Source: Bacteroidales bacterium (GTDB lineage Bacteria > Bacteroidota > Bacteroidia > Bacteroidales > UBA932). Taken from it: DNA of 64,000 bases. This document shows positions 7,308 through 26,540 of the stretch, piece by piece. Each line of letters opens with the position of its first letter. Positions within the stretch are counted from its first letter, which is position 1. The translations under genes were made by a program, and so were the position numbers. The DNA is taken from positions 39,143 to 103,142 of the forward strand of contig JAFZIO010000039.1 in the NCBI GenBank assembly GCA_017554335.1, in the 5' to 3' direction. The notes under the pieces are model-generated. The model was not told where the DNA came from and made no database searches. It saw only the letters and a program-made list of their open reading frames with translations.

Positions 7308-8504
7308 ATGAAAAAATTTATTCTTTGTCTGGCTGCAGCGCTTCTCACCTTTGGAGCGGGAGCTACGGTTCCACACCGTTCCAGCATTCCCAACATCCCC
7401 GGTTACATGACGCTGAAGGGTGATTTTCACATCCATACCAATTTCAGCGACGCCACCGTCTGGCCCGTTACACGCATAGACGAAGCAGATTTCGACGGGC
7501 TCGATTTCGTGTCCATCACCGATCACCTGGAGACCCATCACCAGCATATGTCCAAGGATTTCGGAGCCAACGTAAACCGTAACTCATCCTATGAATTGTC
7601 CCTCAAGGCCGCCAAGAAATATGGCATCCTGGTCATTCACGGAGCCGAGCTCACCCGCGGCACCCGCATCTTCCCCGGGCATTTCAACACCCACTTCATC
7701 AAAGACGGAGATGCAATCGCCAAAGCGTCGGAGGAGCATAACGGCAAGTACGGCGACGATGAATTCAAGCAGGAAGAAGAGGCCATAAAGGCCGGCCTGC
7801 GTGCAGCAAAGAACCAGGGCGCCTTCCTGGTATGGAACCACCCCGACTGGGAGCAGCAGGCTCCCAACGAGACCAAGTGGTGGCCCATCCACACCGAGGT
7901 GCTTAACGCCGGACTCATGGACGGAATAGAAATCGTAAACCGCTTCAGCGGCTACGACCCTGAGGCTTTCCATTGGGCGATTGAAAAGGATCTTGCCATC
8001 GTAACAGGCACAGACGCGCACAAGCCCATGTTCCAGTGGGTGGATTATGAGAAGGGCGAGTATCGTCCTATGACCCTCGTCTTCGCACGCGAGCGCTCCC
8101 TTAAAGGCATACGCGAGGCTCTCGATGCACGCCGCACTGCCGCCGTTGCAGACGGATGCGTATACGGCAAGGCGGAGTGGCTGGAGCCCCTGCTCAAATC
8201 TTGCCTGCAGATTACGGACGTGAAATATTCCGAGAAGAAAGTCACAGTAAACTTACGCAATATCAGTTCAATTCCTATCACCCTCACCAAGGCCCCCGGC
8301 GGAGAGAAACTTACATATCCCCGTCTCCTTTATATAAACGAGGGAGAAGAGTTTTCCATTGGCATCAACGGCATAGACAGCCGCAAGCCCATAGGCATAT
8401 GGGAGTTTGACGTGAATTTCTACATTGCCAACTGGTTCACCGACGTGGACACTCCCCTGCTGGTTAGCTACCACTTTATAGTGCCTGAGCAATACAGGAA
8501 ATAA
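7308..8504 (+). CDS. Secreted PHP-domain phosphoesterase
   Basis: A signal peptide (about residues 1-19) is followed by a PHP domain. The metal-ligand motifs are clear: FHIHTNFSD (His41, His43), SITDHLE (Asp72, His73), HGAELT, PGHFNTHF, WNHPDW and GTDAHK. PHP proteins use a di- or trinuclear metal site to hydrolyse phosphoesters. The export signal and the extra C-terminal beta domain (about 300-398) resemble the phosphodiesterases related to Sphingobium Sb-PDE, which would suggest periplasmic phosphodiester cleavage. The substrate is unknown. The mini-ORF and GLUG lipoprotein that follow are on the same strand, 21 bases downstream, and could share its transcript. Confidence 0.85.
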   Translation: MKKFILCLAAALLTFGAGATVPHRSSIPNIPGYMTLKGDFHIHTNFSDATVWPVTRIDEADFDGLDFVSITDHLETHHQHMSKDFGANVNRNSSYELSLKAAKKYGILVIHGAELTRGTRIFPGHFNTHFIKDGDAIAKASEEHNGKYGDDEFKQEEEAIKAGLRAAKNQGAFLVWNHPDWEQQAPNETKWWPIHTEVLNAGLMDGIEIVNRFSGYDPEAFHWAIEKDLAIVTGTDAHKPMFQWVDYEKGEYRPMTLVFARERSLKGIREALDARRTAAVADGCVYGKAEWLEPLLKSCLQITDVKYSEKKVTVNLRNISSIPITLTKAPGGEKLTYPRLLYINEGEEFSIGINGIDSRKPIGIWEFDVNFYIANWFTDVDTPLLVSYHFIVPEQYRK

Positions 8505-8525: not shown

Positions 8526-8675
8526 ATGTCCAAGAAAAGAGTATTGTTTTTCAACGAAACGGGGTACAAGGCACCCCGGATCGAGATGACTGAGAAGGTC
8601 TGTGAAGACCTTGTGTGTACCAGTCCCGACGGTCTCACTGAGGACTTCGGCGACACAGATGATTTCACCTGGTAA
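8526..8675 (+). CDS. 49-residue mini-ORF with C-x-S...TEDF...W tail
   Basis: An uninterrupted ATG-to-TAA frame fills most of the gap between the PHP gene and the next lipoprotein gene, ending 12 bases before the latter's ATG. It encodes 49 residues with a Lys/Arg-rich start, then Y-x2-P-x-I at residues 14-19, Cys31-x-Ser33, Gly36, TEDF at 38-41, Asp45 and a terminal Trp. There is no signal peptide. The same spaced motif appears in the mini-ORF at 25197-25319, which is also immediately upstream of a fimbrillin-like lipoprotein gene. That repetition is my main reason to call it real. I do not know its function. A leader peptide, a small partner protein or a secreted peptide are all open. Confidence 0.6.
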   Translation: MSKKRVLFFNETGYKAPRIEMTEKVCEDLVCTSPDGLTEDFGDTDDFTW

Positions 8676-8687
8676 AATTCAAGCGCT

Positions 8688-11600
8688 ATGAGAAAAAGTA
8701 TCATTCTTGCGGCGTTTGCATTTGCCGCTCTGGTTTCCTGCACCAAGGAATTCGCACCCGTAGAGAAAATCCAAGCTACGGTTACTCCCGAGGGATATGT
8801 TCCCGTTACTCTCACCGCACAGGTAGATCCTGAGACCAAAGCCACTATCGACGGCAACTTCATCATGTGGGCCGTGGGCGATTCCGTAGCAGTTTTCGCA
8901 GACGGCGCCGGAGAGCCCCTCAAGTTCATCGTTTCCGAGATCATGGGCAACGACACTGTCGAGGCCGTCAAGTTCGGAGGCAATGTGCCCGAAGGAACCA
9001 CAAGTTACATCTGTGCATATCCTTACCGTTCAGACATCACCTGCGCTGAAGGCCAGGTTACCCTGAGCATCCCCAGCGAACAGGTGGTCCCTGCAAACGG
9101 CAACATCGATCCTGCCGCAATGCCTTCTGTGGCCTATTACCCGCAGGTAACCAGCTCCGCTTCATTCCGTAACGTAATGTCCCTCCTCAAATTCAACGTG
9201 GGAAAGAATGAAGGCGTTACCGAAGTTGCCATTACCTCCGAGAGCCCCGTATTCGCAGGCAAGATCGTGGCCAAGGTCGTAGAAGAGTCCGCACCCGAGC
9301 TCACCAGCCAGTGCGACCTTCCGGTTGTCGTAAAGTCAGCCGAAGGCTTCCTTCCCGAGACCGACTACTACGCCGTAGTAGCTCCCTGCTCCGATGTCAA
9401 AGGCCTTATGGCAGGTGCACTTCAAGGCGTAAAGCTTGGTGTACGTACTACCGAAAAAGCACTGAGCGTAACGCGCAACAACGGTCTCAACCTCGGCGAC
9501 GTTACCGACGCCGTAACCTGGAGATATCGTTACATCAAGACCGGTGAAGACCTCGCAGGATTCCTCGCAGAGGCTGATACCTATCCCGCAGGCTGGGAGG
9601 TGGAGGTCCTGAACGACATTGACTGCTCCGGAGTGGAGCTTGTTCCCGCAACCAGCTATGCCGGTATTTTTGACGGCCAGGGCTACAGCATCAAGAACTG
9701 GACTTCCAATGGAACTCCTCTGTTTGTGACCAATACCGGAACCGTTAAGAATTTCACGGTTGATGCATCTTGTAAGCTTAACCTGCCTGAGACCATATCT
9801 GGCAATATTGCTTTTGTAGTATGCAGCAACAAGGGCGTCGTTTCCGGCATTACCAACAACGCTGATATCATCGGTGATGTTACAATCGGAGGTGGTTATG
9901 CTGCCGCAATAGTCGGCCGCTGCGACGCTACCGGTCTTGGACACGGAATTACGGTTGCTGATTGTGTAAATAATGGCAATATCACTCTCAATACTACTGC
10001 CAATACTGCTGGAACCCAGTACGTCGGAACCATTATGGGTAGTATGGGTGCAAATGCAGAGAACGTTATTACGGATTGTATCAATAACGGCGATCTCACC
10101 ATCAATTGCTCCGGAACCAATACCAAGAACTTCTATATCGGTGGTATTACAGGCGGAACTACCAACAACAGTAACAATGTTAACCTGATTAACAACGGCG
10201 ATGTAACGCTTAAGTGCGCGGGCCATGAAGCCGCTTTGTGTCTGGCAGGTATTTCCAGTTACACTACCGGCAACATTACAAACTGCGAGAACAACGGCAA
10301 TATTTCGTTCTTGTCTGAGGGCCGTCTCAAGGCTACTTTTGTAGCTGGTCTTGCCGGTTATTATGCAGACAGGACTGTAAGCAACAGCGTAAACCGAGGC
10401 GACATCACCATCAGCGCAACTGCTATCGGAGGCCGTAATAACATCGGTGGTATGGATGGCACAAAGAGTTACGTCGGCACTAACGGTATTTCAGCCGGTC
10501 TTACAATAGGTGGCCTTGTATCCGCTACCGGTTACAACAATCCTACTTTCGAGAGCTGCTCCAATTACGGTAAAGTAACCCTGACCCTCACGGATCCTAT
10601 GGGCAATCCGGGAAGCCATACTGCAGCCCGTCCTTCCATGGGCGGTCTGGTAGGTGACTGCGCCGGTCCTATGACTGATTGCCATAACTACGGTGATGTT
10701 TCCGTAACATTCGGAACAGCTGACTTCAAGGCTACCAATGCAGGTTATACGCCTTATGTCGGTGGCTTGGTAGGTTCCAGCTATAACTTCTCCGGTGCCA
10801 CTACCAGTGGCGGAAGTAATAAGAACGCCAGGAACAATTTCACCCTTACGGATTGTTCCAATTCCGGAAATGTTACTCTGGTTAATTACAACCAGCATAC
10901 TACCAACAATGCTGTTGGCGGTATCTGCGGCTGGCCTCAGTCCGAGGATAAGACGGCAGTATACGTAGCCAAGAATTGTGTTAATACCGGAAACGTTTCA
11001 GGCATCGGAAATGCTAAGATACGCGTGGGCGGTATCCATGGCGGCACTGGACGTATGGATGGATGCACGAATACCGGTAATGTTTACATAGAAGCCGCAC
11101 AGCCGGAATCTGTGGCAGGAAGTATCGCCGGATTCCACAGCCAGGCACATACCTTCTCCAACTGCATCGCCGGTGGTACTGTTACCGCCAATTGTACAGT
11201 GGCTGGACTTGGTGGCCTTGTTGGCCAGCTTGGCAACGTTACCTTCAACGCAATGGACGGATGCTCCGTTGACTGCGAACTCAACGGCGGCCCCGAGAAC
11301 GCAACCGGTCTCATCGTCGGTAAATTCAACGGAACAGACAAGCCTATCGTGCTCGGTACCGAGGATGATCCCATTGAGGTTGCAGGTAAGATTGACGGCA
11401 CTGCAGTTACTGCAGAGACCATCCAGACCTACTTCTGCGGATCCAACGGCATGAACATCCCTGTTCACGATGTGTTCTACTCATTCGAAGGACAAAACTA
11501 CAGGGCAGCATACTTCGTGGAAAACCTGGAGGGAGAAAGCTTCATCTATGAGGGCAAGAAGTACGCAATCAAGAAGCTTGCAGACGGCAGGTGGTGGATG

Positions 11601-12326
11601 GCCGCTCCTCTGGCATACATTCCCAAGGGCAAGACCGTTTCCGCAGATCCTGTTGAAGATGCCGGTATCTGGTATACATATACTACTGATGGTACTACTA
11701 CTACCGCCTTGACGGATTTCAATGACGGTTATCTCTATGATTATCCTACCGCCTTCGGTGTTGCCCAGGATGCAATCACTTATGGCACTAGGGATGAATA
11801 CAAAGACGGTACTAACGTGGGTAACTTCCGCAATTTTGAAGGTACTCAGGGTATCTGCCCTCCGGGCTGGTATATACCTACCCGTGCCGACTTCCTTAAG
11901 ATTGTCGGCGCTTCCAATAAGGATGATTCCATTACTCCTCCTGAGACAGCAGCAGTGGAAGATGCTTCTGCAGCATACTGGGTGGCCGACTACAAGGGAT
12001 CGTCTATCCCCGTGTTCAATGAGGCCGGATGGAATTTCTCATTCCTGGGAGTTCGCGCCAAGACCAGTACCGCTCAGACAGGTGCTTATAACAAGACAGT
12101 GACCAAGGAGGCTACTTGTTCCGTTGCTGAGTGGATAGGCAAACCGGCATTCAACCAGGTCATGTGTTCCACTCCTTACATGCCTAACGTTGCTGGTAAC
12201 AATGTGCAGTACTTCTGCCTGATGACCACCTTCACCGCTGCCAATATGCAGGGCAAGCTCAGCCTGAGCTACGGCAACTATCTCCATGGTATGGAGGTCC
12301 GTTGTATACGTAAGCAGGCCGAGTAA
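8688..12326 (+). CDS. Large surface lipoprotein: fimbrillin-like N-domain, GLUG repeats, FISUMP-like C-domain
   Basis: The 1212-residue protein has a lipoprotein signal (lipobox LVSC, Cys18). Residues about 25-280 resemble fimbrillin/Mfa-like domains (KATIDGNFIMWAVGDSVAVF, then Y-rich TSYICAYPY). Residues about 290-900 form a GLUG-type beta-helix with repeated GGIVG or GGLVG followed by CxNxGxV. The last 200 residues resemble the FISUMP (Fib_succ_major) module, with GICPPGWYIPTRADFLKIVG. It is likely anchored outside the outer membrane and adhesive or ligand-binding, but no ligand is indicated. It shares the beta-helix design with the proteins at 12449 and 40338, with different N-terminal domains. 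A mini-ORF lies 12 bases upstream. Confidence 0.8.
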   Translation: MRKSIILAAFAFAALVSCTKEFAPVEKIQATVTPEGYVPVTLTAQVDPETKATIDGNFIMWAVGDSVAVFADGAGEPLKFIVSEIMGNDTVEAVKFGGNVPEGTTSYICAYPYRSDITCAEGQVTLSIPSEQVVPANGNIDPAAMPSVAYYPQVTSSASFRNVMSLLKFNVGKNEGVTEVAITSESPVFAGKIVAKVVEESAPELTSQCDLPVVVKSAEGFLPETDYYAVVAPCSDVKGLMAGALQGVKLGVRTTEKALSVTRNNGLNLGDVTDAVTWRYRYIKTGEDLAGFLAEADTYPAGWEVEVLNDIDCSGVELVPATSYAGIFDGQGYSIKNWTSNGTPLFVTNTGTVKNFTVDASCKLNLPETISGNIAFVVCSNKGVVSGITNNADIIGDVTIGGGYAAAIVGRCDATGLGHGITVADCVNNGNITLNTTANTAGTQYVGTIMGSMGANAENVITDCINNGDLTINCSGTNTKNFYIGGITGGTTNNSNNVNLINNGDVTLKCAGHEAALCLAGISSYTTGNITNCENNGNISFLSEGRLKATFVAGLAGYYADRTVSNSVNRGDITISATAIGGRNNIGGMDGTKSYVGTNGISAGLTIGGLVSATGYNNPTFESCSNYGKVTLTLTDPMGNPGSHTAARPSMGGLVGDCAGPMTDCHNYGDVSVTFGTADFKATNAGYTPYVGGLVGSSYNFSGATTSGGSNKNARNNFTLTDCSNSGNVTLVNYNQHTTNNAVGGICGWPQSEDKTAVYVAKNCVNTGNVSGIGNAKIRVGGIHGGTGRMDGCTNTGNVYIEAAQPESVAGSIAGFHSQAHTFSNCIAGGTVTANCTVAGLGGLVGQLGNVTFNAMDGCSVDCELNGGPENATGLIVGKFNGTDKPIVLGTEDDPIEVAGKIDGTAVTAETIQTYFCGSNGMNIPVHDVFYSFEGQNYRAAYFVENLEGESFIYEGKKYAIKKLADGRWWMAAPLAYIPKGKTVSADPVEDAGIWYTYTTDGTTTTALTDFNDGYLYDYPTAFGVAQDAITYGTRDEYKDGTNVGNFRNFEGTQGICPPGWYIPTRADFLKIVGASNKDDSITPPETAAVEDASAAYWVADYKGSSIPVFNEAGWNFSFLGVRAKTSTAQTGAYNKTVTKEATCSVAEWIGKPAFNQVMCSTPYMPNVAGNNVQYFCLMTTFTAANMQGKLSLSYGNYLHGMEVRCIRKQAE

Positions 12327-12448: not shown

Positions 12449-15079
12449 ATGAAACGTATCTTTTCACTTATCCTGTTTGTAGCCTTACTGGCTGCAGCAA
12501 CAGTCTCTTGTAAAAAGGAGCTGGTGGTGCTCAACAGCCCCGTTATCAGTAGCGTAACTGCTGCTACAACATCCGCCGAAGTCACATGGAACGCTGTGGA
12601 TCATGCTACTTCGTACGATCTCCAGTTCCGCGAGGCCGGCGCTGACTGGGCAGACGTCTACTCCGGATCCGCTACTTCCGCTTCCATTGACCAGCTGTCA
12701 CCTGCCACCCAGTATGAGGTCCGCGTAAAGGCGATGGGCGGTGAAGGAACAAAAGAGAGCGACTGGTCTGCAGCTTACAGGTTCACTACCGAGACTGCGG
12801 TAATTACCCTTGACGCACCTACGATTTCCAAAGTGGTGCCCGAGGCCAGGTCTGCTGAGGTTACATGGAATGCCGTTCCCAATGCTACCACATATTATCT
12901 GGAGATTACCAACGGTACCCGTACCGACCTTTACAGGTTCACGGAAACTACCGTGACTTTGGAGAAACTCAAGCCTGCTACTGCCTATCAGGTACATGTA
13001 AGGGCAGCTGCAGAAGGCACCGAGGGCAGCGCCTGGTCCCCTGTTGTGGAATTCACCACCAAGGAGGTCACCTTCACCTATCCTCTGACTATCGACAACG
13101 TTGATGATTTCGTCACCTGGGTCAACGAGAAGGCCGCAAGCTGTACTACGGACAATGTGATTACCCTCGGTATTGACATCGACCTTTCCAGTAAGTCAAT
13201 CACTTCCATCCCCGTCTTTAACGCTGTCCTTGATGCTAACAACCACTGCATTAAGAACTGGACTAACGAAGGAGCGCCTCTGATAGTACAAAATGACGGC
13301 ACCATTAAGGGCCTCGTCATCGACGCCAGCTGTGAGCTGACAATAGTCCCCGGAACAATGGGCTTTATTGTCGCGAATAATGCCGGCACACTCGATGGCT
13401 GTGTTAACAATGCCAACGCAAAATACACCGGAGACCTTACCGAGGTCACATATTTCGGTGCCATAGCCGGCCGTTCCACCGGTCTGGTCAAGAACTGCAC
13501 CAACAACGGTAATATTATTTTCGAGACGGACAAGGGAGACAAGTCCAACAACTGCATCGGCGGTGTAGTGGGACAGTTTGAAGGCACGTCAGGCGTAGTG
13601 GCAGTAGAGAACTGTACGAATAACGGCGCCGTCAAACTGACGACTGCCAATACTCCCAAGAACACTTATGTAGGTGGTGTTGTCGGCGCCTCTGTCGTGA
13701 ACACCAAGGGCAAGGGTGTCAACGAGGGCAACGGCCTGAAGGATTACGGCATCGTGAAGGGTTGCGTCAATACCGGAGAGGTCTGCAACATCTGGTCGGT
13801 CAACGACAGCGGCTCTTACAGTGACCTTGGGGGTGTCATCGGATACCTCGAAGGATCAATAGAGGGTTGCACCAACAAGGGTACCGTAACTCTCCAGGAC
13901 AGCGATGACAACACCACTGCCAGTACTCGTCCCGCAGCCGGCGGTGTAGCAGGTTATGTAACCAGGAACGTCAAGGATTGCATCAACGAGGGTACGTTAA
14001 TAGTCAAGGGTGTATGGTCTGCCGGTACTGAAGGCAACGCCGGCGCTGGCGGTATGTACCAGCCCATATTCGGCGGCGTCATAGGAGGTGCAGGTGAGTA
14101 CTTCCAGGCTTCCTTCGACGGCGGTATCGTGAGCGGCTGTATCAACAAGGGCAAGGTGGATCTCCAGGTATGCCAGAAAGAGAAAGGCGCTACCCAGTCA
14201 GGTGGCGGCGGTGTCATCGGTTACAGCAGCGTTCCTGTAGAGAATTGCCATAACCAGGGAGAACTCAGCATCAATCTCTGGCACAAAGTTGCCCGCGTGG
14301 GCGGTGTCATAGGCTGGTCATATGCCACATCCATAAAGAACTGTTCCAACAGTGGTTCGCTGACTTTCGATTGCAACAGTGCAGCTCTCGGCGCAAATAC
14401 TACCAACTACTTCTCTTATCAGGATTATGTCGGCGGTATTGTCGGAGCATCCCAGGTGGCTGCAGAAATCATCGATTGCGAGAATAAAGCAGATGTAACT
14501 TATAAGGGAGGCGTAACACAGGCTGTGCTCAATTACATAGGCGGTATCATGGGATCCTACACCGGTTCCCAGACAATGACCAACTGCAAGAGCAGCGGCA
14601 AGGTTATAGTTGACAGTGCGGAGGCCTTGTGTGTAGGCGGCCTTTGCGGCGCTTTCAACGGTGTCATGACCGATTGCGCTGTGACAGGTGAGGTGAATGT
14701 CAAGAACTGCGTCGGCATTTCCGGCAAAGAGCCTGAAATCGGGTCATTGGCAGGTTATGGCAACGCATCGTTCGTCAAATGTACCGCAAACCACAACGTT
14801 TCCGTTGAAGCCGGTGGAAGCAGCTTCTACGGTGGTGTATGCGGTGGCTTCGGCAAGGATGTCATCAAGCAGGTGGACGGATGTACACTTAACGCTACCC
14901 TTACCACTGCAGGCTCTGTTACAGCCGCAAAACTCCTCGGCCGCTTCCGCAACAATCCCAGTACCGGAACAATCATTTATTACAAGGATACCACCTTCGG
15001 AGGAAACATCGGCTCACTTGATGTTCTCGGACTCGCAAATGATGGCGCAGTAATCGAAGGCACAGCTCCTGCCCAATAG
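12449..15079 (+). CDS. Surface lipoprotein: two FN3 domains plus GLUG beta-helix
   Basis: The 876-residue protein has a lipoprotein signal ending TVSCKKE (Cys21). Two fibronectin type III domains follow at about 27-114 and 120-206, each with an AEVTWNAV strand and an ATxYxVxVxA strand. From about 230 onward comes the GLUG-type helix with recurrent GGVVG or GGVIG and CxNxGxV rungs. The entry segment (DIDLSSKSI ... CIKNWTNEGAPLIVQNDGTI) corresponds to the same segment of the protein at 8688, so the two share a C-terminal scaffold but carry different N-terminal modules. It is probably exposed on the cell surface and used for binding. The ligand is unknown. Confidence 0.8.
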   Translation: MKRIFSLILFVALLAAATVSCKKELVVLNSPVISSVTAATTSAEVTWNAVDHATSYDLQFREAGADWADVYSGSATSASIDQLSPATQYEVRVKAMGGEGTKESDWSAAYRFTTETAVITLDAPTISKVVPEARSAEVTWNAVPNATTYYLEITNGTRTDLYRFTETTVTLEKLKPATAYQVHVRAAAEGTEGSAWSPVVEFTTKEVTFTYPLTIDNVDDFVTWVNEKAASCTTDNVITLGIDIDLSSKSITSIPVFNAVLDANNHCIKNWTNEGAPLIVQNDGTIKGLVIDASCELTIVPGTMGFIVANNAGTLDGCVNNANAKYTGDLTEVTYFGAIAGRSTGLVKNCTNNGNIIFETDKGDKSNNCIGGVVGQFEGTSGVVAVENCTNNGAVKLTTANTPKNTYVGGVVGASVVNTKGKGVNEGNGLKDYGIVKGCVNTGEVCNIWSVNDSGSYSDLGGVIGYLEGSIEGCTNKGTVTLQDSDDNTTASTRPAAGGVAGYVTRNVKDCINEGTLIVKGVWSAGTEGNAGAGGMYQPIFGGVIGGAGEYFQASFDGGIVSGCINKGKVDLQVCQKEKGATQSGGGGVIGYSSVPVENCHNQGELSINLWHKVARVGGVIGWSYATSIKNCSNSGSLTFDCNSAALGANTTNYFSYQDYVGGIVGASQVAAEIIDCENKADVTYKGGVTQAVLNYIGGIMGSYTGSQTMTNCKSSGKVIVDSAEALCVGGLCGAFNGVMTDCAVTGEVNVKNCVGISGKEPEIGSLAGYGNASFVKCTANHNVSVEAGGSSFYGGVCGGFGKDVIKQVDGCTLNATLTTAGSVTAAKLLGRFRNNPSTGTIIYYKDTTFGGNIGSLDVLGLANDGAVIEGTAPAQ

Positions 15080-22785: not shown

Positions 22786-25185
22786 CTATTGTTCTATGCA
22801 GGGTCGGATGGGGAATACGTACTGGCGGTTGCTGCCGTATGTACTGGTAGGCGCACCTCCGTTGTAGCAGTTGAGGTTGAAGCCGGATTTATTGTTGTTG
22901 GCATTGGCGGCCCAATAAGAGAAACCGGTACCAACCTTACTCAATGAAGCTGCGGTTTTAGTGGATGTCAGGTTCATGGTGCTCATGGAACCTGTGGCAG
23001 GATAGAACGTGGTTTCTCCGCTCTTGCCGGGTGCTGAATAAAACGCATAACCTTGTTCGAAGGGGAGTGCATTATCGCCGGTGAAGGCCGTCCAGGCGCC
23101 GATTGGCGGCAGGCAGGTACCTACCGGGCAGGGGTCGTAAACCGTCTTGACCACAGGCTCTGCATTGGCTGCATTTGTGCTTGAAGATGCAAATGCTCCC
23201 TGGGTGGCATTCCACAGGTTGGCGTAAGTGCCATCTCCGTTGGAGTCTTTGTTGTAGAAACTGGGGTGGCTGATATAAGCTGCGATACTCTCTCCCAGTC
23301 TCATGGCCCGGGTTCCTACAGTATCCCGTCCTGACGTCTTGAACCAGGTTTTCTTGATGCAGTCTGCCATGGGATCTGTGTTTGGCGTGCCGTCGCTTGC
23401 TACGAACGGGTCTTTGCGTCCCCACTGGTAGAAAGGACAATTGCCCATCTGGTTATCAACCTGGGCTGCAGATTGCAGCAGCTTGAATTCAATCGTCTTG
23501 CCGCTGCCGCTCTGGGTAAAGGTCAGAAGAGTCTCGTGCGGCTGGTATACTACAGGCGAATCGTAGGGGGCTACCCATCCGAGATTGATTCGGGTAAACT
23601 TATAATTATTACCTGCCTTGTTTGTGATGGCAATGGGCTGCAGTTCGCTTTCAGAGGCTCCGCAAACCCAGATATGCCAGCTCCAGACCACCCCTCCTTT
23701 GGAATCCAGGGCACTGATAACGGCATTTCCTTCGCGAATTGTCTCTGACGGTACCTGGAAGACAATCTTGTCGTTCTCGCCGCCGTCATTGACGAGTCCC
23801 ACTTCTTCTGCCACAAGCCCGGGGGCGTCCTGCCACTCGATGCGTGCGCTCACGGCTTTTGCGCCGGAGCCATTGATGTAGGGGCTGCTTATGGCGGACC
23901 CGTAAGCATCGATGAAAGGGGAGAGTGCGGTGGAGCCGCTCACGGCTGGGGCGTACGCATTAGTGTTCGGGGCGCCGTTCTTGATGGCGTTACCGTACAC
24001 AAGAGGGAAGCTGTACCACCCGGGATCCCTGACAACATAGCAGTTGGCGGTATTAACGCCGCTCAGAGACGCTCCGAACAATGTGTTGTTGTCAGTTGAC
24101 AGGTCTATGGGAGAGCTGCTGCTGCCGCGCGGGGAAGTCTGCAGTCTGGTATTGTTTGCGCTTGTGCCTCCGGAGCCCGCATCGGGGGCGAGGCGGTAAA
24201 CTATATTGCTGTTCGGACTGATTGCCTTCTGGGTGCCTTTGCCGTCGTCCATGTTGACATGGGCGTTGCTGTGGACCGTAAATGACAAGGAGTTGATGCC
24301 CGAGTAGGAGTAAAAAATGGTCTTGGTCGCTCCTGGCTGGACAGAACCCGAGTCGTCGCCGTCCTGCCAGTCAATGCTGAATCCGCTGTCGTATGGCAAC
24401 GGTGTCATTGACAATTCTCCGGTCTTCAGCCGTTTGCTCCGCGTGGCTGTTACGGGATTGGCGGTCGTCTTTTCAACGGAACCGTTTTCGCCGCTGAGCG
24501 TAAGAGTAATACCTTTGCTGAAAGTCTGCGGTGCAATTGCAATGTAGTAGGTGCCCGGCTTGAGCTCAGCCCCTCCGTCTGATATGCTGGCTTCTTTGGC
24601 ACCTTCTGTTATTACAGGGTCGGGGACTCCGGTTTCAGGATTGCCCGGAACTGTCATCCTTATCTTGCCTGCAACCAGCTCGCCGTTGTTGCCGCGAAGG
24701 GAAATCTTATTGACCCCCGTGACGGCAAGGTTGACTTCTACAAGAGTAACGCAATTCTGGAATAACAGTTCTTTGGCGTTAGACGAAGCAACAGCCACAA
24801 TATTGCTGAATTGGTTGGGGATGGCTTTTTGCTCGGACGGAAGGGTAGTGGTGATGCATCCCGTTGAGTTAGTTGCGTCCGGATTATAAGGGTATACGGC
24901 GTAATACTTTGAGTTGGTGTTCTGAATGGTGCCCTCCAGCCAGAACTGTCCGTCACCTCCGGTAGTGGCAATGAAGCGATAGTTGTCGGATTTGCTGAAT
25001 ATGGAAACAGCATCTTTCCCAGCCTCCCAGCAGATCTTGTAGCCGTCTGTGAGGCAGGCCTTGGTGTCTATCTCGCTTATTTTGAAACGGGTGACTTGTC
25101 CGGCAGATACTTCGATGGCCACCGGTTCTTTGCCGCAGGACAGCAGGGCCGCTGTGCTGAGCAAAAGAATAAATAATTTCTTCAT
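22786..25185 (-). CDS. Fimbrillin-like surface lipoprotein with FISUMP-like C-terminus
   Basis: From this ATG the protein has about 799 residues with a lipobox at LLSCGKE. The frame opens six codons earlier at 25203, but that ATG overlaps the mini-ORF stop. The chosen ATG begins a clean lipoprotein signal (MKKLFILLLSTAALLSC) and is preceded by AGGAGGAAAGG. Residues about 30-270 resemble fimbrillin/Mfa-like domains (ICWEAGKDAVSIFSK, YYAVYPYNPDATNS), and the middle holds a second beta domain. The C-terminus (VYDPCPVGTCLPPIGAW and a last Cys-rich tail) resembles FISUMP modules. It is likely surface-exposed. It is the first large gene of the C25/TonB operon and follows a mini-ORF, as does the protein at 8688. 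Confidence 0.78.
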   Translation of the reverse strand: MKKLFILLLSTAALLSCGKEPVAIEVSAGQVTRFKISEIDTKACLTDGYKICWEAGKDAVSIFSKSDNYRFIATTGGDGQFWLEGTIQNTNSKYYAVYPYNPDATNSTGCITTTLPSEQKAIPNQFSNIVAVASSNAKELLFQNCVTLVEVNLAVTGVNKISLRGNNGELVAGKIRMTVPGNPETGVPDPVITEGAKEASISDGGAELKPGTYYIAIAPQTFSKGITLTLSGENGSVEKTTANPVTATRSKRLKTGELSMTPLPYDSGFSIDWQDGDDSGSVQPGATKTIFYSYSGINSLSFTVHSNAHVNMDDGKGTQKAISPNSNIVYRLAPDAGSGGTSANNTRLQTSPRGSSSSPIDLSTDNNTLFGASLSGVNTANCYVVRDPGWYSFPLVYGNAIKNGAPNTNAYAPAVSGSTALSPFIDAYGSAISSPYINGSGAKAVSARIEWQDAPGLVAEEVGLVNDGGENDKIVFQVPSETIREGNAVISALDSKGGVVWSWHIWVCGASESELQPIAITNKAGNNYKFTRINLGWVAPYDSPVVYQPHETLLTFTQSGSGKTIEFKLLQSAAQVDNQMGNCPFYQWGRKDPFVASDGTPNTDPMADCIKKTWFKTSGRDTVGTRAMRLGESIAAYISHPSFYNKDSNGDGTYANLWNATQGAFASSSTNAANAEPVVKTVYDPCPVGTCLPPIGAWTAFTGDNALPFEQGYAFYSAPGKSGETTFYPATGSMSTMNLTSTKTAASLSKVGTGFSYWAANANNNKSGFNLNCYNGGAPTSTYGSNRQYVFPIRPCIEQ

Positions 25186-25196
25186 GGCCTTTCCTC

Positions 25197-25319
25197 CTAC
25201 CATTCAATTACATCGTACTCGGAAAAATCCTCGGTTGAACCGCCTGTAAGGCTGTCACAAATAATGCGGACCAGCTCTTCGCTGATCTCTGCAATGTCCG
25301 GCCGTGTGTATTGTTTCAT
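25197..25319 (-). CDS. 40-residue mini-ORF heading the C25/TonB operon
   Basis: The frame runs from an ATG 20 bases after a promoter box to a TAG whose last bases begin the ribosome binding site of the next gene. It encodes 40 residues: a short basic start, Y4-x2-P7-x-I9, an acidic helix-like middle, Cys21-x-Ser23, Gly-Gly, TEDF at 29-32, Asp36 and a terminal Trp40. Compared with the 49-residue mini-ORF at 8526, the spaced Y-P-I, C-S, G, TEDF, D and W positions all align with one single-residue gap. There is no signal peptide. It is the first gene of the operon, so it could act as a leader peptide, but the conserved C-terminus argues that the peptide itself matters. Confidence 0.65.
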   Translation of the reverse strand: MKQYTRPDIAEISEELVRIICDSLTGGSTEDFSEYDVIEW

Positions 25320-25338
25320 AACATTACTGCTTAACATA

Positions 25339-25368
25339 CAAATATATTATTAATTTTATATATATTTG
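25339..25368. promoter_or_regulatory. Divergent promoter pair
   Basis: TATATTTG occurs on both strands: minus at 25346-25339, 19 bases before the mini-ORF ATG, and plus at 25361-25368, 20 bases before the ATPase ATG. Both match TAnnTTTG. The AT-rich core between them is shared, so the operon and the ATPase gene may influence each other. Confidence 0.7.
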
Positions 25369-25388: not shown

Positions 25389-26540
25389 ATGGATTCTCCT
25401 TTTGTATATAACCGTCCTGTCAGCGGCCGGTATTTTGTGGGACGCAAGGCCGAATGCGCCATTCTGGCCAATTTGCTCAGGAATGGCGAGAACGTAACTA
25501 TGTATGAAACCCCAAAAACCGGCAAAGACTCTCTGCTGCAGCAGGTTTTCTCTTCTTTTAAGCTGGAAGACAAGCAGTTCCGTGTAGTAAAGGTGCCGGT
25601 GATGAATGTCCGCAGCGTAAGCGAATTCTGCATCCGCCTGGGCTCGGAAATCCTGAAGATATATGGTTCGACCGCTTCTGAATATGCGGCTTTGGTAGAA
25701 AGCAACCTGGCCGGCTCGCACTTTGTTTTTGACGAAGTTGCATGGCAGAACAACGGCAGTATACTCTCCCTGGACTGGGATATTGACGAAGAAGACGTAA
25801 GTGCGGTGGTTACCCTCCCGTACCGCATCGCCCGCCAGAACGGAAACCGGCTTTTCGTGTGCATAGATGAGTTCCAAAGCGTCATGCTCACGGAGGACGG
25901 AGATATGATTTGCAGGGCCATGCAGGATGCCTTCAAGGCACGTACGTCGGAAGACCGTCAGGCGGCCTCCTACGTGCTCGTGGGCTCGCAGGTCAATGCA
26001 ATGAAGGAGATCTTCGAGCACCGCCGCCTCTTCCACCGCCAGGTGGAGCGGGTGAAGCTGGAGCCTATAGACCCCAAGGATATAGTGGATTCCGTCAACA
26101 GGGGATTCCTCTCCAGCGGCAAGGTGGCGGAAAGGAACCTGCTCCTGGGCGTCTGCGAACTCTTCCGCAACAACATCTATTACGTCAATTGTTTTATTTC
26201 CATCTGCGATTCGCTGTCCAAGGGCTACATCATGGAACCGGTGCTCAATGAAGCCCTGGCCGACATGCTGGCCATACATGAGCCCCGTTTCCGGGCCATT
26301 ATGGCGGATCTTACCACTTTCCAGGTGTCGCTGCTCCGCGCCGTGATAGACGGCCACACCAGGTTCAGTAGCGCAGAGGTCATACGCCGCTACGAACTCA
26401 ACTCGTCCGCCAATGTACGCCGCCTCAAGGACGCCCTCTGCAAGAAGGAGATAATCACCTTCGATTCAGACGACAACCCGCACCTGCTGGACCCTCTGTT
26501 CGAGTACTGGGTAACAAAATATTATTTTGAAATTCAATAA
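25389..26540 (+). CDS. AAA-type ATPase with C-terminal winged-helix-like domain
   Basis: The 383-residue cytosolic protein starts with a GRKAE segment and a P-loop region YETPKTGKDSLL. The lysine (Lys46) is kept, but the first Gly is Glu40 and the usual Ser/Thr after Lys is Asp47, so the Walker A is non-canonical. Walker B is clear (LFVCIDEFQSV). The C-terminal 60 residues (SSAEVIRRYELNSSANVRRLKDAL) look like a winged helix. The plan resembles archaeal-type/STAND-like ATPases common in Bacteroidetes. The function is unknown. It is divergent from the C25 operon, and its last codons contain the -33 box of rplU. Confidence 0.75.
   Translation: MDSPFVYNRPVSGRYFVGRKAECAILANLLRNGENVTMYETPKTGKDSLLQQVFSSFKLEDKQFRVVKVPVMNVRSVSEFCIRLGSEILKIYGSTASEYAALVESNLAGSHFVFDEVAWQNNGSILSLDWDIDEEDVSAVVTLPYRIARQNGNRLFVCIDEFQSVMLTEDGDMICRAMQDAFKARTSEDRQAASYVLVGSQVNAMKEIFEHRRLFHRQVERVKLEPIDPKDIVDSVNRGFLSSGKVAERNLLLGVCELFRNNIYYVNCFISICDSLSKGYIMEPVLNEALADMLAIHEPRFRAIMADLTTFQVSLLRAVIDGHTRFSSAEVIRRYELNSSANVRRLKDALCKKEIITFDSDDNPHLLDPLFEYWVTKYYFEIQ

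Follow-up and report, generated by a model that had tools for sequence, protein, structure and literature searches.

Small genes preceding surface lipoprotein genes in Bacteroidales probably encode LPP-like RiPP precursors

Two mini-ORFs of a Bacteroidales genome are, to judge from their sequences, real genes and members of a large family of small genes. Both lie in the window, by which we mean the whole 64,000-nucleotide stretch of contig JAFZIO010000039.1 analysed here. We consider it likely that they encode precursors of RRE-dependent RiPPs of a type resembling the linear polyphosphorylated peptides (LPPs) of Bacillota: the head of the peptide would serve as the leader, and the core would be modified, exported and paired with a lipoprotein. 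Support comes from the family itself, purifying selection, the leader motif, a conserved serine, the content of an operon, the co-occurrence of the precursors with that operon, and the linkage to lipoprotein genes. The initial annotation, whose observation is confirmed in part and whose interpretation is likewise supported in part, rightly saw small peptides that form a family and are linked to fimbrillin-like surface proteins. Its proposal of a “partner, regulator or leader”, however, missed the main point, which is the combination of a YxxP leader and a fixed Cys/Ala-x-Ser with an operon encoding an RRE, an HprK-like kinase, a signal-peptidase-like (SpI-like) protein and an ABC exporter.

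Results

Two small genes and their lipoprotein partners

The features of the two genes are collected in Table 1. The frame of precursor 1 is intact on the plus strand, as first described. The 40-residue frame of precursor 2 also represents a real peptide, but it is open on the minus strand only, the plus strand of 25197–25319 being interrupted by a stop. Both genes stand directly before a lipoprotein gene, as had been noted: the lipoprotein ATG lies 12 nt past the stop of precursor 1, and the MKK start lies 11 nt past that of precursor 2. In a scan that included the window with E values up to 5, no family member is listed before the GLUG genes at 12449 and 40338, in agreement with the earlier observation.

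Neither precursor matches Pfam or NCBIfam, and the mini-ORF itself resembles no fimbrial family; the counterpart of the fimbrillin-like surface lipoproteins of Bacteroidales is the downstream gene. The association with such surface proteins was recognised correctly, whereas the label “fimbrillin-like” is weakly founded: Pfam detects no fimbrillin family in the N-terminal domain of the lipoprotein, and the profile of this domain gave a single PDB match at E ≤ 0.1, the putative cell-adhesion protein 4k4k (E = 0.0029). A PHP-domain-like gene with a signal-like N-terminus (window 7308–8504) ends 21 nt before precursor 1, which may therefore sit within an operon. The gene divergent from precursor 2 (window 25389–26540) has a sub-threshold match to ATPase_2 (E = 0.003).

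Table 1. Features of the two precursor genes in the window
Feature	Position	Strand	Basis or remark
Precursor 1, 49 aa	8526..8675	+	Family profile; leader Tyr14-x2-Pro17, Ser33
Precursor 1, predicted leader, residues 1-30	8526..8615	+	Family alignments and position match to the LPP leader (PMC13381572); cleavage site predicted
Precursor 1, predicted core, 19 aa: Cys1-Thr2-Ser3, acidic tail, terminal Trp	8616..8672	+	Predicted by analogy to the LPP core
Precursor 1, cognate fimbrillin-like lipoprotein, 1212 aa, C-terminal Fib_succ_major domain	8688..12326	+	
Precursor 2, 40 aa	25197..25319	-	Family member
Precursor 2, predicted leader, residues 1-20	25260..25319	-	Predicted
Precursor 2, predicted core, 20 aa: Cys1-Asp2-Ser3, acidic tail, terminal Trp	25200..25259	-	Predicted by analogy to the LPP core
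TATATTTG, fits TAnnTTTG, ~20 nt upstream of precursor 2	25339..25346	-	Sequence
Precursor 2, cognate fimbrillin-like lipoprotein	22786..25185	-	ORF from 25203; likely start MKK at 25185

Size and spread of the family

The source assembly comprises 2.35 Mb in 75 contigs and is ~88% complete. A genome blast with precursor 1 returned six matches including itself, all six directly before a lipoprotein-like ORF. A seven-row profile raised this to 15 matches, namely 13 complete members (the seven rows included), one member cut by a contig end and one false match. Approached from the partner, a profile of the lipoprotein N-terminal domain found 32 places in the same genome. Among the 30 that were examined, 15 have a member directly upstream (E ≤ 0.01), three have a lower-scoring candidate (E 0.2 to 3.4) identified by eye, and 12 have none; eight of the 15 had seeded the domain profile, and the remaining 22 loci divide into 7, 3 and 12. 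Within the last group, L101 and L103 lie within ~2 kb of a member-bearing lipoprotein, and L110 lies near one with a weak member.

Across all loci collected, we counted 129 members at E ≤ 1e-3, including one truncated duplicate (L024) and several copies from near or identical records. Most (118/129) directly precede a lipobox-like ORF (109) or another signal-peptide-like ORF (9), that is, an ORF starting between -45 and +130 nt from their stop; for two of the other 11, such a partner lies 144 and 391 nt away. Control small ORFs from the same loci directly precede such ORFs in 246 of 1423 cases (67 lipobox-like, 179 other signal-peptide-like), after 77 of the 1500 drawn were dropped for their nearness to a locus end. 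Lipoboxes and signal peptides were assigned by crude rules that we devised, so these figures give a contrast and no exact rate.

The first broad profile (E ≤ 0.1) has a match in 31 of 99 genomes from the taxonomic family of the source, and a later one (E ≤ 0.05) in 34; the two profiles give up to 15 and 14 matches in the source genome and up to 10 and 12 in the others. A scan of named genomes yielded 39 loci, 37 of them in records of Bacteroidales, Bacteroidia or Prevotellaceae, and many Bacteroidales records with members are titled as ruminant gut samples. The remaining two belong to MAGs titled Oscillospiraceae and Fibrobacter, which may be binning errors. In a phylum sample of 345 genomes, only the source genome matched at E ≤ 0.001, just two of the 20 other listed genomes being of the same order. 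In an order sample, 21 of 295 genomes matched at E ≤ 0.1, some of them by chance. A tblastn search with one member against plasmid and phage records found no match, and 37 members searched against Pfam and NCBIfam gave no convincing known family.

Some YxxP small ORFs are arranged differently. Those at L192, L173, L193 and L183 (genomes G551, G730 and G649) have no lipoprotein directly downstream, and most of them end in Trp with acidic residues, for example LWGDDE. Their relative at L172 of G551 does have a lipoprotein directly downstream. Five stretches fetched from G551 and G730 contained no kinase, SpI-like or RRE match. At L123, L157 and L085, two divergent precursors are separated by a few hundred bases, and each is followed by a lipoprotein of its own. 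An invertible switch between such pairs was considered and rejected, since two pairs show only 73–77% inverted similarity, the level of coding homology.

Anatomy of the peptides

What do the members have in common? The TEDF-x3-D-x3-W tail, to which the initial annotation drew attention, is present in both window peptides but does not extend to the whole family; conservation lies instead in the head, Tyr-x2-Pro-x13-[Cys/Ala]-x-Ser. A search for small ORFs ending in the tail pattern, as had been suggested, tracks the variable part and would lose most of the members found. In the profile-aligned rows, Tyr and Pro occur in 128/128 (partly by construction of the profile) and Ser in 125/128, while the residue two before Ser is Cys in 99 and Ala in 26 of the 128. 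The span from Tyr to Ser is 20 residues in 120 of the 129 members and 19 in two; seven of the 129, one of them truncated, break the [CA]-x-S rule. Similar heads are enriched in the collection, because loci L123–L161 were recruited by the head peptide pattern. After Tyr-x2-Pro, the head continues with a stretch rich in alternating hydrophobic residues. No signal peptide was seen by eye in the mini-ORFs.

From these alignments, the head is likely to be a leader, the core probably begins at Cys/Ala, and Ser3 is the likely phosphosite. The predicted cores are acidic and 12–37 aa long (median 20 aa), so the conserved block stands at no fixed distance from the stop. Among the 122 members that follow the rule, the residues following Ser carry a net negative charge in every case, an aromatic residue occurs among the last six residues in 110, and the tails contain one Cys among 2208 residues. 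Asp or Glu occupies core positions 7, 8 and 9, numbered from Cys/Ala, in 23, 15 and 19 of 115 cores.

A putative modification operon

The source genome contains two PqqD-type RREs (at L205 and L206). At L205, genes for an HprK-like kinase, an SpI-like protein, the RRE and an MsbA-like ABC exporter follow in a row. The RRE (PF05402, E 1e-14) and the exporter (PF00664, E 3e-32; PF00005, E 1e-23) exceed the respective cut-offs, and the top NCBIfam match of the exporter is MsbA (E 3e-73, below the equivalog cut-off). The kinase matches the HprK-related model TIGR04352 (E 5e-4), and the SpI-like protein matches the archaeal signal peptidase model TIGR02228 (E 4e-5), both below cut-off. Key residues are invariant in the alignments: Asn35 and Asp73 of the RRE in 31/31 rows, the Walker A residues of the kinase in 14/14, and Ser35, His73 and Asp88 of the SpI-like protein in 15/15. 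An NTP transferase (PF14907; E 2e-31 in a relative) is present at 11 of 32 operon loci; none was seen in the 17 kb around the operon of the source genome.

In PDB searches, the best match of the RRE profile is TfuB1, a lasso RRE (6jx3_B, E 2.7e-8). The best match of the precursor profile is the partner chain in the same entry, the TfuA leader (6jx3_A), at a non-significant E of 1.2. The LPP RRE structure 9x8z (LppB), which the searched PDB set may lack, is not among the four PDB matches of the RRE profile.

Comparison with the LPP systems of Bacillota

How closely does this operon resemble a known system? LPPs were described by Popov et al. (Nat Commun, May 2026; PMC13381572), and that paper names as core genes SpI, a discrete RRE, an HprK-like kinase, an NTP transferase and an MsbA-like transporter. 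The RRE binds the leader through Tyr-16 and Pro-13, Asn33 and Asp70 of LppB holding the Pro kink and the Tyr; RREs recognise YxxP in lasso leaders and, as described there, in LPP leaders. Core Ser3 is phosphorylated in a kinase-dependent manner, the SpI-like peptidase cleaves after Thr-1, and catalysis by LppS uses Ser29, His68 and Asp93 (PMC13381572). The Bacteroidales system shares the clustering of RRE, HprK-like kinase, SpI-like and MsbA-like exporter genes, with the NTP transferase in some relatives, so that the source operon holds four of the five LPP core genes. Its peptides share the YxxP leader, a Ser roughly where core Ser3 lies and a variable C-terminus, and RRE Asn35/Asp73 are the likely counterparts of LppB Asn33/Asp70 (spacing 38 versus 37).

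There are also differences. The host is Bacteroidales, whereas the authors call LPPs and paeninodins restricted to Bacillota and the biological role of LPPs unknown (PMC13381572). There are at least 13 members in the source genome and up to 12 matches in others, mostly away from the operon, and most of the precursors precede a surface lipoprotein. Core position 1 is Cys or Ala, the His73–Asp88 spacing of the SpI-like protein is unlike that of His68–Asp93 in LppS, and the NTP transferase was not seen at the source operon. Finally, the LPP leader consensus is YxxPxVLxHQxIxFETxxS, with a Tyr-to-Ser span of 19 (PMC13381572). The part after YxxP (VLxHQxIxFET) is absent here, leaving Y, P and the closing S as the only invariant letters in common; we therefore call the peptides LPP-like and not LPPs. 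Searches of the open-access literature yielded no report of LPP-like systems, or of small ORFs with YxxP, from Bacteroidales.

Association of precursors with the operon

We defined an operon locus as one with at least three of the five operon genes, and 32 of the 41 loci scanned qualify. A same-strand precursor lies within 2.5 kb in seven of them (L207, L208, L209, L210, L211, L231 and L279), five of these at 38–147 nt; in the source genome, there is none within 2.5 kb of the operon. The first five were fetched because the closeness was already visible, L279 was added after the operon had been seen, and L231 is a control locus. At L279, which comes from another family, the precursor lies 38 nt before the kinase gene, followed by SpI-like, RRE, NTP transferase and ABC genes, and no lipoprotein follows.

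With the later profile, the 99 genomes divide into 31 with both precursor and kinase, 3 with precursor only, 7 with kinase only and 58 with neither (Fisher 1e-15), and 41 of 20000 within-genus permutations reach the observed association. Because that profile holds rows found beside operons, the comparison was repeated with the profile that predates the discovery of the operon. At E ≤ 0.1, the counts are 24, 7, 14 and 54 (1e-7), four of the precursor-only genomes (G020, G059, G070 and G082) having false-looking matches; at E ≤ 0.005, they are 18, 3, 20 and 58 (8e-7). The earlier profile finds no support within genera (5747 of 20000 permutations), and much of the association may thus be due to common descent. 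Three genomes, G026 (73% complete), G033 (96%) and G051 (99%), have precursors and no kinase or PqqD match, and seven have the kinase and no precursor match.

Selection, promoter and the leader–core mosaic

Codon-level conservation, whose absence the initial annotation took as grounds for refutation, is present. Lipoprotein identity served to choose 26 pairs in which no locus recurs; their dN/dS is 0.31 for the head, 0.31 for the tail and 0.25 for the lipoprotein. This set was assembled because the first one (16 pairs; 0.34, 0.26 and 0.28) had been picked by tail identity. Within 120 nt upstream, 53 of 114 loci carry TAnnTTTG, which we take to be the Bacteroidetes -7 element; mononucleotide-shuffled sequences give a mean of 6.7 and a highest count of 13.

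Do head and tail share one history? Across 109 loci, the similarity between lipoproteins is mirrored more closely by that between tails (Pearson r 0.64) than by that between heads (0.26), with 0 of 500 permutations reaching either value, and head and tail similarity are hardly correlated with each other (0.16). When pairs with a lipoprotein score ≥ 0.5 are excluded, the values fall to 0.41 and 0.20. The rank correlations with the lipoprotein are nearly equal (tail 0.15, head 0.14), so the contrast between tail and head stems from close relatives and may be linkage.

When 6555 pairs were compared as DNA, 113 had in common a stretch of 40 nt or more around the Cys codon with ≥ 80% identity; the recruitment of some loci by the head pattern favours similar heads here as well. 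The shared stretch covers the head alone in 90 pairs, upstream and head in 3, tail and lipoprotein without upstream in 14, both sides in 4, and other combinations in 2; the extension was gapless and misses shared flanks with indels, as at L138/L143. In 77 of the 90 head-only islands, the similarity stops no more than 17 nt past the first base of the Cys codon, at the predicted end of the leader. Islands under 90% identity may reflect mere protein conservation; 28 of the 113 pairs reach ≥ 90%, 17 of them head only, among them L156/L068 with 97% over 73 nt. The simplest reading of this pattern, though not a proof, is that some exchange has taken place at the predicted leader–core boundary.

Discussion

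Could the peptide be incidental to its neighbourhood? A translated leader that controls lipoprotein translation by coupling or ribosome stalling, with a peptide that has no life of its own, would fit both the position of 118/129 members directly before a lipoprotein-like or signal-peptide-like ORF and the promoter-like TAnnTTTG just upstream of many of them. We nevertheless regard it as unlikely. Selection acts at the amino-acid level on head and tail, the precursors co-occur with the operon, and the L279 member precedes a kinase gene instead of a lipoprotein gene. In ribosome-arrest and attenuator leaders, moreover, the conserved residues stand at a fixed distance from the stop, whereas here the distance of the conserved block varies. 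We give very little credence to the proposal that the DNA of the head serves mainly as a recombination seam at which surface-lipoprotein cassettes are exchanged, with the peptide as a by-product. It would account for the predominance of head-only sharing, including that at ≥ 90% identity, but the islands below that level may reflect protein conservation and the gapless extension overlooks flanks with indels. In addition, heads differ strongly within the source genome, the divergent pairs reach only the modest inverted similarity given above, and the peptide itself is under selection.

Two further readings concern the peptide itself. An unmodified small partner or chaperone that binds the fimbrillin-like protein directly is very unlikely in our view. 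The closer Pearson correlation of the tail with the lipoprotein speaks for it, but the near-equal rank correlations do not, no signal peptide is seen by eye in the mini-ORFs, and conservation is strongest in the YxxP head, which is common to peptides with unrelated partners. The other reading is that they are lasso peptide precursors, which also have a YxxP leader. According to Popov et al. (PMC13381572), paeninodin-like lasso peptides, which are phosphorylated, combine a YxxP or WxxP leader with a discrete RRE, an HprK-like kinase and an NTP transferase, and the Bacteroidales system shares the YxxP leader with discrete RRE as well as the kinase and NTP transferase. The PDB searches have a lasso RRE and, weakly, the corresponding leader as best matches, one of 37 members matches the NCBIfam model lasso_cyano (E 0.074), and the operon RRE of a relative matches lasso PqqD models below cut-off. 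Against this, the source genome (~88% complete) has no match to the B2 peptidase PF13471, the operon carries an SpI-like protein instead, and the cores have no fixed acidic residue at positions 7–9; we hold a lasso product to be highly improbable.

Under the LPP-like reading, the peptides would most likely, by homology, be processed as follows.

Leader binding: The translated precursor would present its head, with Tyr-x2-Pro, to the stand-alone PqqD/RRE protein, which is predicted to bind it as a leader.

Phosphorylation and cleavage: The HprK-like kinase, of which the genome has one copy, located away from the precursors, would phosphorylate the conserved core Ser3. The signal-peptidase-like protein would cleave before Cys/Ala, making this residue core position 1.

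Export and pairing: The MsbA-like ABC transporter would export the acidic core. Since the precursor precedes the lipoprotein gene and the core sequence tracks that of the lipoprotein, the mature peptide probably acts with the adjacently coded lipoprotein at the surface, as ligand, cargo or regulator; linkage and co-inheritance suggest this pairing.

Two features are new compared with LPPs: the precursors are numerous and scattered, each paired with a surface lipoprotein, and core and lipoprotein are inherited jointly. A more far-reaching scheme is possible, although we hold it only tentatively: one shared LPP-like machine would serve a dozen or more dispersed precursors, each mature phosphopeptide would be exported and then presented on its own lipoprotein or retained by it, and cassettes of “core plus lipoprotein” would be swapped behind shared “promoter plus leader” modules, forming a coded peptide-display system of gut Bacteroidales. 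The LPP-like reading would extend this class from Bacillota to Bacteroidales, with many precursors per genome. As the surface lipoprotein is a consistent genetic partner, it offers a testable idea of what the peptides are for, and Y-x2-P-x13-[CA]-x-S before a lipoprotein gene provides a motif for finding such small genes.

The source genome also holds a separate RiPP-like locus. Its second RRE (L206:7727-9371; G000:C23) lies beside a radical SAM/SPASM maturase-like gene, and next to this locus is a 67-aa ORF with tandem repeats (L199:1267-1470, minus strand).
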